64,000 nt of DNA, from the NCBI GenBank assembly GCA_009726095.1, contig WLMZ01000003.1:1-64000 (forward strand), read 5' to 3'. This document shows positions 24,880 through 30,032 of the stretch, piece by piece. This stretch comes from Actinomycetota bacterium. Its GTDB lineage: Bacteria > Actinomycetota > Acidimicrobiia > Acidimicrobiales > Ilumatobacteraceae. The notes below the pieces were generated by a model. It saw only the letters and a program-made list of their open reading frames with translations, made no database searches and had not been told where the DNA came from. Made by a program: the position numbers and the translations under genes. How positions within the stretch are numbered: position 1 is the stretch's first letter; each line of letters starts with the position of its first letter.

Positions 24880-27162
24880 TTACTGGCGTCCCATTGCGGC
24901 TCGTGCCTCGGTGATGCCCTGATCAGGGGCGGCACTGCGCTCGACGAGCTGGATGTCGACCCGATCGAGATGGCCCTCGAAGGGGAAGGGTCCTGCATAG
25001 CGGTTGCTGACCGTCGACCCGTGATCGTTGCCGATGCTCGGTCCGATACTGGAGATCATTCGCATCACGAACGGCAGGTCGATGGTGCCGCTGTCCTGCC
25101 CGTCGATGACGAGCGTTGCATCGCCGCCACCAGAGCGACGACGGAAGCGCACCCCGACAACCGACGGGCCGACAGGCACCGGGGCGGTCGAGTCGAGGAC
25201 GTGGTGCGCCCCGAAGATGTTGTAGTCGAAGACCAGACGATCGTTCTGGATGAACAGGCTGACGCCTGAGTTCGCTGTGCCGGTGGCGAAGAGCACGCCC
25301 TGTGCGCCAGCGGGGCGGTCGATGACGGCATCGAGGTCCCAACTACGACCGGCGATGGATGCCGACGCCTGGCTGGGCAGCGACGCAATCGGGGGGCGAT
25401 ACGTGTAGTGCCGGTCGGGGCGATGCACGCCATGAGCGCGTGACCGGCCACCGAACAGTTCGATGCCACGGTCGTCGATGGGGAGCACACCGTGTTCGCG
25501 GGCCTCGACCCACCACAACGCCACCAGCTCAGCGAGCTTGTCGGGCATGGATTCGGCCAGATCGTTGCATTCGGAACGATCTTCGGCAAGGTGGTACAAC
25601 TCCCAGGTGTCGTCGTCCAGAGCGACTCCCGGCTGGTGCCGGGTCACGGCCTTCCAACCGTCGGTGATGATTGCGCGGTGACCGTGCATCTCGTAGTACT
25701 GGACGGCCTTGTGCGTGGGAGCGGCGGGCTGGTCGAACGAGTAGCGCATGGAGGTGCCGGTGATCGGGATCTGCTCGAGGCCGCGGTAGACCGCGGGCGC
25801 CTCGATGTTGAGGATCTCGTAGATGGTCGGCGCGATGTCGTTCACGTGGTGGAACTGATCGCGCAGGGTGCCGGCGTGAGCCGGGTCGATGCCGGCGGGC
25901 CAGTGGACCACGAGTGGTACGTGCACGCCGCCTTCGTGGGTGTTCTGCTTGTACCAGCGGAACGGTGTGTTGCCGGCCTGTGCCCAACCCCACGGGTAGT
26001 TGGTGTGGCCGTGCTCGCTACCGATGTCGTCGATGCGGACGATGGCTTCATCGGGGGTCTCGAGGATGAGGTTGAAGAACTTCATCTCGTGCATCACACC
26101 GAAGGGCCCGCCCTCCTGGCTGGCACCGTTGTCGGACAGCACCATGATGACCGTGTTGTCCAGCTCACCCAGCCGTTCGAGGTCGGCCATCAGCCGGCCG
26201 ATCTGGGCATCGGTGTGATCGAGGAACGCAGCAAACGCCTCCTGCAGGCGGGCGGCGAGACGGCGGTGGGTCTCGGGCATCTCGTCCCATGCCTCTACCC
26301 CGGGGTTACGTGGTGCGAGCACCGTCTCGGGGGGCAGGAGGCCCATCTCCTGTTGACGGGCGAACCATTCGGCGCGGGCGACATCCCAGCCTTCGTCGAA
26401 CCGGCCGCGGTACTTGTCGAGGTAGGCCTGCGGCGCCTGGTGTGGGGCATGCGTCGCCCCGAAAGCGAGGTAGGTGAAGAACGGTCGATCGGGTCGGACC
26501 GATTTTGCATCGTGGATGAAGCCGATGGCTCGATCGACGAGATCCTCGCTGACGTGGTAGCCCCCATCGGGCGTGCTGGGCGGATCGACATGATGGTTGT
26601 CGTAGACGAGCTCGGGGTGGAACTGATCGGTCTCGCCGTCCATGAACCCGTAGAAGCGGTCGAAGCCGCGCTGGCACGGCCACTGATCGAACGGTCCGGC
26701 AGCGGACGCGTTCTCCATCGGGCACAGGTGCCATTTGCCCAGGGCAAACGTGGTGTAGCCGCGATCGCGCAGGACCTCGGCGACCGTCGCGGCGTGGTTG
26801 CTGATCTGGCCACGCATGTTCTGGAAGCCGGTGTTGAAGTTCGACACCGAGCGCATGCCGACTTCGTGCTGGTTGCGGCCGGTGAGCAGGGCGGCGCGCG
26901 TGGGTGAGCACAGCGGTGTCACATGGAAGTTGGTGTAGCGCAGGCCGTTACCGGCGAGGGCGTTGATGTTGGGGGTCTCGATGCTCGACCCGAAGCACCC
27001 GAAGTGGGAGAAGCCGAGATCGTCGAGCAGGATGACCACCACATTCGGGGCCTGCTCGCCGGGGTGAGGCGGCTCGGGCCAATGGGGCGTCGATTGGGCA
27101 AACGTATCGCCGACGACACCTTCGAACTCTGGCTGGGGAATGGCACCTGTCGAACTGTTCAT
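24880..27162 (-). CDS. Arylsulfatase-family sulfatase
   Basis: Type I sulfatase of 760 residues that would hydrolyse sulfate esters. The formylglycine motif is 'TPLCSPTRAALLTG' (Cys85, Arg89), and the metal-binding 'VVVILLDDLGFSHFG' supplies Asp47-Asp48. A further block, 'VIMVLSDNGASQEGG', carries the second metal ligands. After residue 600 comes a beta-rich C-terminal module ending in 'FPFEGHLDRVDIQL', reminiscent of laminin-G-like sandwiches. It resembles the long mycobacterial AtsA/AtsD-type proteins. No signal peptide is visible, so it is probably cytoplasmic; a formylglycine-generating enzyme is not in the window. ATG 27162 overlaps the dehalogenase stop (ATGA). Confidence 0.9.
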   Translation of the reverse strand: MNSSTGAIPQPEFEGVVGDTFAQSTPHWPEPPHPGEQAPNVVVILLDDLGFSHFGCFGSSIETPNINALAGNGLRYTNFHVTPLCSPTRAALLTGRNQHEVGMRSVSNFNTGFQNMRGQISNHAATVAEVLRDRGYTTFALGKWHLCPMENASAAGPFDQWPCQRGFDRFYGFMDGETDQFHPELVYDNHHVDPPSTPDGGYHVSEDLVDRAIGFIHDAKSVRPDRPFFTYLAFGATHAPHQAPQAYLDKYRGRFDEGWDVARAEWFARQQEMGLLPPETVLAPRNPGVEAWDEMPETHRRLAARLQEAFAAFLDHTDAQIGRLMADLERLGELDNTVIMVLSDNGASQEGGPFGVMHEMKFFNLILETPDEAIVRIDDIGSEHGHTNYPWGWAQAGNTPFRWYKQNTHEGGVHVPLVVHWPAGIDPAHAGTLRDQFHHVNDIAPTIYEILNIEAPAVYRGLEQIPITGTSMRYSFDQPAAPTHKAVQYYEMHGHRAIITDGWKAVTRHQPGVALDDDTWELYHLAEDRSECNDLAESMPDKLAELVALWWVEAREHGVLPIDDRGIELFGGRSRAHGVHRPDRHYTYRPPIASLPSQASASIAGRSWDLDAVIDRPAGAQGVLFATGTANSGVSLFIQNDRLVFDYNIFGAHHVLDSTAPVPVGPSVVGVRFRRRSGGGDATLVIDGQDSGTIDLPFVMRMISSIGPSIGNDHGSTVSNRYAGPFPFEGHLDRVDIQLVERSAAPDQGITEARAAMGRQ

Positions 27163-28088
27163 GAGGGGTCTCCGTAGGTGGTGTCGGCGTTGATGAACGC
27201 ATCGATGATGGCGACCAGTTCGTCGGGGGCGTCCTCTTGGATGAAGTGGTTGGCGCCATCGATGACCTGGTGCGGTTGGCCCTGCGCGCCCGGTACCAAC
27301 TTCTGGAACTTCAGGTGGGCGCCTGGTTTGTACGCAATGGCATCGGCGCTGCCGAAGACCGTGAGGAACGGCTTGTTCCACGTCTCCAGAAATGCCCATG
27401 TGGCCTGGCAGTCCGGCACGCCGGGGTTGTCGGGCTGCAGGGGGATGAGCAGTGGAAACTCCAGCGGGCTGGCCTGATAGGTGCCATCGGGGAAGGGCGC
27501 GTCGTACGCCAGTTGCTCAGCGGGCGACATTGGGCGGGTCACGCCGCCGGCGATGAGCGTGCCGACGGGGAGTTCCGTGCTGGCCTGGCTGAATGCCAGC
27601 CAGTTACTCATGAACTTGTTGACGCCCTCGCCCACGGGCACGCCGGTGTTCGAGGCGATCACCCGGGCAAAGCGATTGGGATGCTCGCGCAACACGTTGA
27701 GCCCCAGCGTGCCGCCCCAGTCCTGGCAGTACAGGGTGGCGTTGGTGAGGTTCTCGGCATCGAGCCACTGACCCATCCAGTCGACGTGGCGGGCGAGCGT
27801 ATAGAACTTCCGGTCATCGGGCTTGTCGCTGCGGCCCATGCCCATCAGGTCGAGCGCGATGACGCGATGGCCGAGAGCGGCCAACCCGCGGATCATGTGG
27901 CGGTGCAGGTACGACCACGACGGGTTGCCGTGCAGGAGGATCACCGGGGCCGCGTCGGCTGGGCCCTCGTCGATGAAGTGGTAGCGCAGCACCGTGCCGT
28001 CATGGGCGGTGACGTTGCGGTAATGGGGCTCGAAGTCGTAGTCGGGAAGATTGTCGAAGCGTTCGTCGGGAGTGCGCAGGACCTTCAT
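27159..28088 (-). CDS. Haloalkane dehalogenase (subfamily I, DhlA-like)
   Basis: Alpha/beta-hydrolase of 309 residues, almost exactly DhlA length, that should cleave carbon-halogen bonds by hydrolysis. The nucleophile is Asp123 in 'CQDWGGTLGL' with halide-binding Trp124; Trp163 in the cap domain is the candidate second halide ligand; Asp249 ('FGSADAI') and His281 ('GANHFIQED') complete the triad. The oxyanion motif is 'LLHGNPSWSYLHRH'. Asp after the cap rather than Glu at the second strand indicates subfamily I. The substrate is unknown. ATG 28088 lies five bases after the upstream stop, and the stop is shared with the sulfatase start. Confidence 0.9.
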   Translation of the reverse strand: MKVLRTPDERFDNLPDYDFEPHYRNVTAHDGTVLRYHFIDEGPADAAPVILLHGNPSWSYLHRHMIRGLAALGHRVIALDLMGMGRSDKPDDRKFYTLARHVDWMGQWLDAENLTNATLYCQDWGGTLGLNVLREHPNRFARVIASNTGVPVGEGVNKFMSNWLAFSQASTELPVGTLIAGGVTRPMSPAEQLAYDAPFPDGTYQASPLEFPLLIPLQPDNPGVPDCQATWAFLETWNKPFLTVFGSADAIAYKPGAHLKFQKLVPGAQGQPHQVIDGANHFIQEDAPDELVAIIDAFINADTTYGDPS

Positions 28089-28093
28089 CGCGT

Positions 28094-28813
28094 TCAGCCC
28101 ACCTGTGGCGCGTCGGCCACCGACGACACAAGGTTGTCGAGGAAGACCCGCAGTGTCATGGTGAACTGCTCGGCGGCTGCGTCGGACGCGGTGATCGCGG
28201 CCAGCGCCGTGTCGTCGACCCAGTCGAAGCGGACTTCGTCCCAGCGGCGCTCGTCGCCCACGATCACACCCTCCACGTTGAAGCGAGCGATCGGCCGCAC
28301 GCCTTCGGGATCGCTTGAGGACGAACCTGCAGGCGTCAGTGCGCCGTCGGCGAAGCGGGTGACGCGCACGATGTACGAACCACCTGCGGGGACCTCGCCC
28401 TCGCTGCACCACACGGGACTGCACGACATCACGATGGTGAACTCCATGCCGGCTTCTTTGTGTACATGCTTGCCCTTGAAATCCTCGCGCTGCTGCATGG
28501 CGATGAACGCCGAGCGGCTGGGGTAGCGCACGATGCCGACGCGGTCCCACGCCGGGTCGCTGCCGGTCTGGTCGGTGACGTCGCCGGCGAACGCGACCAT
28601 CGCCCCGATGGCCTTCAACGGCCCGAAGGGGGTGTACTCGTCGTCGGCATCACGTCCCGAGCGCGTGGTCTCGCGACCGTCGGCGTATGCGGCCACGGCG
28701 CGGTACTTCATCAAGTTGATCGCCCAGAACGGCGGGTCCTGCTCTGGGGTAAGACTGAACCAGCCCTTGATCATCTCGTAGTTCGGTGTGCCGTAATTGG
28801 GGCTCTCAGCCAT
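28094..28813 (-). CDS. Hypothetical protein with DUF1330/EthD-like ferredoxin fold
   Basis: A 239-residue protein. The central part, 'PPFWAINLMKYRAVA' and later 'VGIVRYPSRSAFIAMQQRED', resembles the dimeric alpha/beta-barrel DUF1330 group, which begins with an N-(L/M)-(L/M)-K-(Y/F) strand and has a segment on pasted-together protomers. The last third is a second similar unit, so the protein may be an internal duplication. No catalytic residue is obvious. ATG 28813 has AAGGAA eight bases upstream. It lies between DUF2855 and the dehalogenase on the same strand, so it is probably part of the same catabolic operon. Confidence 0.6.
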   Translation of the reverse strand: MAESPNYGTPNYEMIKGWFSLTPEQDPPFWAINLMKYRAVAAYADGRETTRSGRDADDEYTPFGPLKAIGAMVAFAGDVTDQTGSDPAWDRVGIVRYPSRSAFIAMQQREDFKGKHVHKEAGMEFTIVMSCSPVWCSEGEVPAGGSYIVRVTRFADGALTPAGSSSSDPEGVRPIARFNVEGVIVGDERRWDEVRFDWVDDTALAAITASDAAAEQFTMTLRVFLDNLVSSVADAPQVG

Positions 28814-28883
28814 GGTGTTGTTCCTTGTACGTGGCCCGTGCGGGCGGTTGATCAGTGGATGGTGTCGGTGGTGTCGGTGGTGT

Positions 28884-29975
28884 TCAGGTGGTGATGAGGC
28901 TGCAGAGGTGACCGAGCCGGGGGTCCACCCGCCCGGAGAGCAGTTCGCGGTACAGGGTGATGACGGCCTCGGGTGTGTCGGCGTGGCGGAAATCGATCCA
29001 GCCATCGACCCAGGCAGCAAAGAGGTGCCACGCTTCGCTGACCCGCGCATCGAGCCCGTCGCGGCCCCACTCCTTCGAGCGCTTCGAGATCTGCGACGGG
29101 GCGAAGAAGAACGTGGGACGCGGGCCGGCAAGGGTGGCGGCGTCGGTATCAGCGGGGCTGTCCCAGTGCGTGCCGCCGACCGTCATCGAATGGCCGAGCA
29201 GGTCGCCCAGTCGGGCATGCACCGCATGGCGCACCACTTGATCGCCGGCCACGTCGACGTACACGGAGGGTACCGGAGCGATCGAAGCGACGTCTGTGTA
29301 GGTGATGACCTCGTCGTACACGCCGAGGCTGGTGACGAAGTCGGTGTTGCCCGCAGAGGTGAGGCCGACAACACGTTGGCCGCGGCGGTGGGCGAGGTAT
29401 GCGGCACCGATGGCGGTCTTGGCCGATGCGCTCGAGATCACGATCTGCTCGGCGCCGAAGTCGTCGTTGTCGAGCAGGAAATCATCGACGACGAAGGAGG
29501 TGAAGAACAGCGGGTAGAGCAGCATCTGGTGGGCCTCGCGCTCGGCGCGGTATGCGCTGTCGGTCGCACAACGCTGGTAGCGGTTGTAGGCGGACGCGAG
29601 CGCGGATCGGTGCGGAGAGACATCGGTGATGCCCCGTGCGTCGGCGCGGCCACAGGTGATTACGAGTTCGTCACCCATCGGGAAGTAGCCGAAGAGCCGT
29701 TCGCCCACAATCACATCGGGTGACAGCGACTCCACGACCTGTCCGAAGCCCCAGACGGGGATTCGCCCCCACACGGCGTTGTCGTCGGACACGGTGCCGG
29801 CCGGGAAGAAGTCCCAGTAGTTCATCATGTCGCCGAACACGGCGTAGCTGATGTTGTTCGCAGACAACGCAAACGCATCGACGCGCACCCGAATCTGGCC
29901 GTCGGCCAACGCAACGGGGGTCGCTCGATGTTCGCCCACGCGCTGCAGGTCTGCTCGCACCACTTCGAGATCCAC
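28884..29975 (-). CDS. DUF2855 family protein (MDR-related)
   Basis: A 363-residue protein of the DUF2855 family, distantly related to medium-chain dehydrogenases: an N-terminal GroES-like part ('IRVRVDAFALSANNISYAV', 'WGRIPVWGFGQVVES') and a C-terminal nucleotide-binding part ('IVISSASAKTAIGAAYL', 'RVVGLTSAGN'). The classic zinc ligands are not seen. The activity is unknown. GTG 29975 has a strong SD, GGGGAGG, eight bases upstream. It is the first gene of the operon with the DUF1330-like, dehalogenase and sulfatase genes, transcribed from the promoter at 30004-30032. Confidence 0.8.
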   Translation of the reverse strand: MDLEVVRADLQRVGEHRATPVALADGQIRVRVDAFALSANNISYAVFGDMMNYWDFFPAGTVSDDNAVWGRIPVWGFGQVVESLSPDVIVGERLFGYFPMGDELVITCGRADARGITDVSPHRSALASAYNRYQRCATDSAYRAEREAHQMLLYPLFFTSFVVDDFLLDNDDFGAEQIVISSASAKTAIGAAYLAHRRGQRVVGLTSAGNTDFVTSLGVYDEVITYTDVASIAPVPSVYVDVAGDQVVRHAVHARLGDLLGHSMTVGGTHWDSPADTDAATLAGPRPTFFFAPSQISKRSKEWGRDGLDARVSEAWHLFAAWVDGWIDFRHADTPEAVITLYRELLSGRVDPRLGHLCSLITT

Positions 29976-29998
29976 GTCGTCCCTCCCCAGAAATCTTT

Positions 29999-30032
29999 TG
30001 TCAGTATTATTGACAGAAGATACTGCCGTCAA
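29999..30032 (-). promoter_or_regulatory. Promoter and palindromic operator of the dehalogenase-sulfatase operon
   Basis: On the minus strand: -35 TTGACG (30027-30032), 17-base spacer, -10 TAATAC (30004-30009), then a 28-base leader with GGGGAGG before GTG 29975. The -10 sits inside TGTCAgtattatTGACA (29999-30015), a 17-bp inverted repeat with five perfect outer pairs and one mismatch near the centre. This is the typical layout of a TetR- or MarR-type repressor site. Confidence 0.65.

Follow-up and report, generated by a model that had tools for sequence, protein, structure and literature searches.

A conserved, putatively TetR-regulated operon linking a haloalkane dehalogenase and a type I sulfatase

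A haloalkane dehalogenase gene and a type I sulfatase gene are linked with two further genes in an apparently regulated operon of an uncultured actinobacterium of the class Acidimicrobiia. The operon lies in the window (the whole stretch of DNA analysed, 64,000 nucleotides), which is contig C115 of a 3.5-Mb assembly with a completeness of 88%. We consider it highly probable that this linkage is conserved and regulated, and we assign a probability of about 0.55 to the reading that the locus is a TetR-repressed catabolic operon, serves one shared pathway, and forms an arm of a multi-locus regulon. The genes, their conserved linkage, the conserved operator motif, the catalytic residues, and the predicted folds were all computed.

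Gene content and predicted products

The locus comprises the following features:
24880..27162, minus strand: type I (formylglycine) sulfatase, 760 aa, with Cys85 in CSPTR (PF00884)
27159..28088, minus strand: haloalkane dehalogenase, 309 aa, with N55, D123, W124, W163, D249, and H281 (NF002043)
28094..28813, minus strand: two-domain dimeric alpha+beta-barrel protein (P0002; here, the two-barrel protein), 239 aa, of a family found mainly in Acidimicrobiia
28884..29975, minus strand: DUF2855 protein, 363 aa, with a GTG start behind GGGGAGGG (PF11017)
29999..30015: predicted TetR operator TGTCA-N7-TGACA (TGTCAATAATACTGACA on the minus strand), a palindrome covering the -10 box
30003..30032, minus strand: promoter-like site TTGACG-18-AATACT (or TTGACG-17-TAATAC), 9/12 matches

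The four minus-strand genes follow one another in the order DUF2855, two-barrel protein, haloalkane dehalogenase, and sulfatase, and all four are confirmed. The DUF2855 gene is separated from the two-barrel gene by ~70 bp and the latter from the dehalogenase gene by 5 bp, and the dehalogenase stop codon overlaps the sulfatase start (ATGA). Both the gene order and the overlap had been described in an earlier note on this DNA and are present as described.

The DUF2855 protein belongs to PF11017 (E value, 2e-105; 353 bits; positions 1 to 335 of the 335-position model). Its predicted structure (pLDDT, 91) has an MDR fold closest to that of NADPH double-bond reductases; PA1648 was the top Foldseek match (E value, 1e-14), followed by double-bond and prostaglandin reductases, and a sequence search of the PDB gave no convincing match. 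The predicted structure of the two-barrel protein (pLDDT, 87) resembles RPA0582 over one half and, more loosely, chlorite dismutase-like folds over both halves. RPA0582 is also its one relative in the PDB, in agreement with a dimeric alpha+beta barrel. The earlier description of this protein as DUF1330-like was only weakly right: P0002 has no match to DUF1330 (PF07045) in Pfam and a relative from locus L050 scored 16.7 bits, under the cut-off of 23, so that membership in DUF1330 was dropped. In a phylum-wide sample, 11 of 297 genomes encode the two-barrel protein, all of them from the same class (Acidimicrobiia), and no relative was found in the viral contigs searched. Its public relatives come mostly from metagenome-assembled genomes (MAGs) titled Acidimicrobiia, Acidimicrobiales, or Actinomycetota, and the titles suggest lakes, sea, and soil.

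The sulfatase matches PF00884 (E value, 7e-68), carries the C-x-P-x-R motif of type I enzymes as CSPTR at position 85, and has a C-terminal extension of roughly 200 aa. One match to the formylglycine-generating maturation enzyme (PF03781; E value, 3e-66) is present in the genome, on contig C176.

Linkage in other genomes and the dehalogenase

When 198 genomes of the bacterium's order were searched with the two-barrel protein, 66 carried it and DUF2855 was found in 43; a comparison of the two lists of matches gave ~13 further genomes in which DUF2855 and the two-barrel protein are encoded on one contig, a few kilobases apart. Two arrangements recur: (A) DUF2855, TetR, two-barrel protein, dehalogenase, and an unnamed family, c1, to which some loci add SDR or luciferase-like oxidoreductase genes; and (B) TetR, sulfatase, metallo-hydrolase, dehalogenase, and two-barrel protein, with a sulfatase about 60 to 66% identical to that of the window. 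In a scan of public genomes, the 80 two-barrel loci had DUF2855 (26 loci), dehalogenase (29), sulfatase (19), metallo-hydrolase (14), and TetR (24) genes as neighbours within 8 kb, and 30 of the 80 had no partner in that range, in some cases because the contig was short. The exact four-gene order of the window was found in locus L132, whereas L150 has DUF2855, two-barrel, and sulfatase genes. In L169, a MAG titled Dehalococcoidia, genes for TetR, the sulfatase, the dehalogenase, and the two-barrel protein occur together, and the complete genome of IMCC26256 (L142/L250) carries those for the two-barrel protein, dehalogenase, metallo-hydrolase, and sulfatase. The complete set is confined to the window and L132 among the loci surveyed. 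Clusters with DUF2855 mostly lack the sulfatase and clusters with the sulfatase mostly lack DUF2855, suggesting that the four-gene set consists of two joined modules. The conserved gene set is also larger than the four genes of the window, as it includes TetR, metallo-hydrolase, SDR, and luciferase-like oxidoreductase genes and two unnamed families. The latter two, c1 (L046:12315-12950) and a lipocalin-like ORF ending at 11977 in L061, are conserved, have no Pfam match, and travel with the operons.

A second survey, which started from the dehalogenase and so avoided selection by the two-barrel protein, covered 1.5-kb flanks in the 30 best-matching genomes. In 13 of these 30, which are related and do not represent 30 independent events but span many genera and families, a sulfatase gene directly adjoins the dehalogenase gene (the same type of sulfatase in 10 and another in 3). 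Adjacency by chance was estimated at about 1%, since the 3.5-Mb genome encodes 7 sulfatases and 4 dehalogenases scoring over the cut-off. The linkage thus extends beyond close strains to families of the order and one Dehalococcoidia-titled MAG, and its recurrence across the order supports the functional link between sulfatase and dehalogenase suggested in the earlier note. The "marine-type" character proposed there appears too narrow, as many titles of linked-genome records name lakes or reservoirs. In another phylum, on plasmid pMSHV of Sphingobium herbicidovorans (L241:4805-6924), the genes for a sulfotransferase and a haloalkane dehalogenase overlap, and SDRs, TetR, and an EthD protein are encoded close by; there, too, a sulfate-handling enzyme adjoins the same dehalogenase family.

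The linkage could also reflect co-regulated general detoxification, in which the two hydrolases act on unrelated substrates and are both useful against the same natural-product or pollutant mixture. Sulfatases and haloalkane dehalogenases are generally promiscuous, the clusters are modular, with sulfatase-less and dehalogenase-less versions common, and on plasmids of other bacteria, four annotated regions with this dehalogenase show no neighbouring sulfatase. However, a loose island would be expected to give less direct adjacency than was found (13 of 30 genomes). Moreover, in the sulfatase tree (this and the tree below were made with FastTree and midpoint rooted, and supports were not used) the linked sulfatases group in one specific clade, outside which fall three unlinked paralogs from the genome and a distant match in L179. 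We regard detoxification as somewhat unlikely.

Against NF002043, the closest haloalkane dehalogenase model, the window dehalogenase scored 384 bits (cut-off, 265). W163 aligns with a Trp common to the three closest structures and, judging from this alignment and from related structures, probably binds halide. (A hand alignment to W175 of DhlA, in which the cap Trp appeared to be missing, was discarded, as the close structures share a Trp in "W..FSQ.") The catalytic pentad, defined for haloalkane dehalogenases as Asp-His-Asp plus Trp-Trp (PMC6920932), is complete (D123, H281, and D249 with W124 and W163), and there is an extra Asn55. In the dehalogenase tree, clade A, which contains the window enzyme and is mostly associated with DUF2855, is distinct from clade B, which is associated with sulfatase and metallo-hydrolase and takes in the second dehalogenase copy of the genome, on contig C130; the window combines a dehalogenase of clade A with a sulfatase of the linked clade. 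The motif HGN occurs in all 16 members of clade A and in two divergent members without the cap Trp, whereas HGE occurs in clade B, in the other paralog, and in the three closest structures. Asn is the halide-stabilizing residue in subfamilies II and III (PMC6920932). Judged by its sequence, the window enzyme combines the residues of subfamily I with the Asn of subfamilies II and III, a clade-wide feature, and is no plain DhlA-type enzyme. The model score and the pentad agree with its earlier assignment to haloalkane dehalogenase subfamily I.

The replacement of the Glu of the closest solved enzymes by Asn in the clade of the window could alternatively mean that dehalogenation has been lost and that the "dehalogenase," as an alpha/beta hydrolase, attacks a different bond within a pathway for sulfated terpenoids, steroids, or lipids, and the accompanying SDRs, luciferase-like oxidoreductase, metallo-hydrolase, and TetR are also typical of lipid or terpenoid catabolism. 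However, all five pentad residues, i.e., the Asp nucleophile, both halide-binding Trp residues, the acid, and the His, are retained in 43 of 45 cluster members, which is poorly explained without dehalogenation, and the Asn itself has a halide-stabilizing counterpart in the two other subfamilies. A non-dehalogenating hydrolase is thus quite improbable.

Predicted operator and regulon

The earlier note placed the genes behind a near-consensus promoter. The hexamers TTGACG and TAATAC are indeed present with a 17-bp spacing at 30032-30004, but "near-consensus" is overstated, because TAATAC agrees with TATAAT at only three of six positions and the score is at chance level: the best reading, TTGACG-18-AATACT, has 9 of 12 matches, and one such site was found where 0.5 was expected by chance. 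The hexamers were consequently dropped as the main signal. That the genes form one regulated operon is nevertheless supported, the signal being the predicted TetR-type operator that is conserved with the operon.

Of 28 loci, 18 contain the motif TGTCA-N7-TGACA, with no or one mismatch, in the 200 bp upstream of DUF2855, compared with 0.43% in shuffled sequences; these 18 are not fully independent (L048 and L168 have apparently identical sequences, and L162 and L163 are close). As the motif was picked after viewing the window and a few relatives, the remaining loci offer the fairer test, and it is still frequent there. It is absent upstream of DUF2855 in the other 10 of the 28 regions, including L132. 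Upstream of DUF2855 in L156 and L161 there is a palindrome of equal spacing, TGGCA-N7-TGCCA, and the in-operon TetR of this group is of a different type, so the repressor and its site may have co-evolved. Both the conserved operator motif and the recurrence of the linkage in numerous families of the order, as well as in a Dehalococcoidia-titled MAG, speak against a meaningless neighbourhood that arose by chance or was retained among close strains alone, and the probability of this is negligible even though most of the genomes are MAGs and related genomes are non-independent samples.

In relatives, a TetR gene is located inside the operon. In the window's genome, one good ortholog was found, the intact gene C130:10805-11386 (97 bits, with the next best at 25), the product of which shares just 34% identity with the in-operon TetR that served as the query. 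A one-mismatch operator, TGACACTACTAATGACA, is located at C130:11460, between this TetR gene and a divergent lipocalin-like gene whose family adjoins DUF2855 in L041 and L132. About 37 one-mismatch sites are expected by chance per genome; this one carries weight because it lies beside the TetR gene and fits the longer form TGTCANTANTANTGACA, which has only one other genomic site at up to two mismatches. Exact operator sites number three in the 3.5-Mb genome (in the window, at C170:21627, and on C163), where about one is expected. The genome has two c1 homologs, and the C170 site lies 20 bp ahead of the ATG of one of them. In arrangement A, c1 comes after the dehalogenase gene, and since this homolog is outside the window, the site gives independent support for a regulon spread over several contigs. 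As expected of a TetR-controlled operon, the palindrome lies on the promoter and is conserved in orthologs, and a TetR gene is found in the operon of relatives and here in trans, with a one-mismatch site. The C130 TetR, the nearby copy of the motif, and the exact copy before c1 point to a TetR regulon of several loci, of which the window locus would be one arm.

The third exact site (C163:8183-8199; L245) covers what is probably the start codon of an acyl-CoA-dehydrogenase-like ORF, with a divergent transporter-like ORF nearby, and may mark a further regulon member or be a chance occurrence. The region C130:1-19900 (L061) encodes a sulfatase distinct from that of the window, a dehalogenase sharing 51% identity with the window enzyme, a metallo-hydrolase, SDRs, TetR, the lipocalin-like protein, and a DinB-like protein, and likely comprises sister operons of the same regulon. 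Another sulfatase is encoded at C138:11000-24049 (L062) together with a THAP4-like heme-binding barrel protein, a glyoxalase-like protein (VOC type, by eye), and a second DUF2855 protein (52%); here, too, DUF2855 adjoins a sulfatase.

Proposed pathway and relation to known systems

We infer the following scheme for the binding of TetR, its ligand, the reactions and their sequence, and the substrate. The C130-encoded TetR would bind TGTCA-N7-TGACA over the -10 box and block transcription until a ligand, which would probably be the substrate or a product of an early step, releases it, whereupon the four genes would be co-expressed. The sulfatase would then cleave off a sulfate ester, and the dehalogenase would displace a halide via an alkyl-enzyme ester at Asp123, yielding an alcohol. 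The DUF2855 protein would reduce (or oxidize) a C=C or C=O bond with NADP(H), and the two-barrel protein could contribute an accessory oxidation, isomerization, or binding step. Together with the sister loci (metallo-hydrolase, SDRs, and luciferase-like oxidoreductase), the products would break down a small, probably lipid-like, sulfated molecule.

Because sulfatase and dehalogenase are jointly conserved, the simplest guess is that one molecule carries both groups or that the two enzymes act on successive substrates within one pathway, and a halogenated sulfate ester is a plausible substrate. One candidate is the chlorosulfolipids, a real compound class that fits; their first description was from a chrysophyte of fresh water, and they occur in the sea as well (PMC13413282). 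Our literature search retrieved no account of bacteria degrading them. The narrower proposal of a dedicated pathway for halogenated sulfate esters, such as algal chlorosulfolipids, with the sulfatase and a distinct dehalogenase clade acting sequentially on one molecule, is rather unlikely. If true, it would assign a natural role to the subfamily I dehalogenases, connect the cycles of sulfur and halogens in lakes and sea, and point to what DUF2855, the two-barrel family, and two other unnamed families do. The biological role of haloalkane dehalogenases has been described as still poorly understood (PMC10619424). The conserved pairing with one sulfatase clade and the predicted operator and regulator make such a role directly testable, since the ligand of TetR and the substrate of the sulfatase would reveal which class of compound is involved.

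The titles and abstracts of the few papers with both dehalogenase and sulfatase terms do not describe such an operon, and within the coverage of our literature search, outside which most subscription papers lie, no paper names DUF2855 and none joins Acidimicrobiia, dehalogenase, and sulfatase. The SLF module for alkyl sulfate degradation on Psychrobacter plasmid pP62BP1 resembles the proposed system in that a sulfatase and oxidoreductases are encoded in a compact operon that is under repression and is induced by an intermediate of the pathway; in contrast to the window locus, it has an AraC/XylS-type regulator and other gene families, and its operon has no dehalogenase (PMC10779009). The predicted fold of the DUF2855 protein is like that of MDR reductases (PA1648, plant double-bond reductases, and prostaglandin reductase 1; TM score, about 0.6), but identity to the double-bond reductases is only 12 to 18%, and Pfam lists the family as one of unknown function.

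The arylsulfatase of Pseudomonas aeruginosa (1hdh) shares the CSPTR motif and aligns with residues 38 to 560 of the window sulfatase (E value, 2e-81), and long mycobacterial AtsD-like type I sulfatases are also among the closest known systems; the window sulfatase differs from these known enzymes in its extra C-terminal region of ~200 aa and in its coupling to a dehalogenase. The dehalogenase is similar in length to subfamily I enzymes (PDB 5esr, 6f9o, and 4mj3; DhlA, 1b6g). Over its full length it resembles the three best of these structures (phmmer E values, 3e-100 to 8e-89), and it shares with them the Asp-His-Asp triad, W124, and the Trp aligned with W163. Its clade has HGNP (16 of 16 members) where the subfamily I structures have HGEP, and unlike these comparators, it is located in a sulfatase operon.
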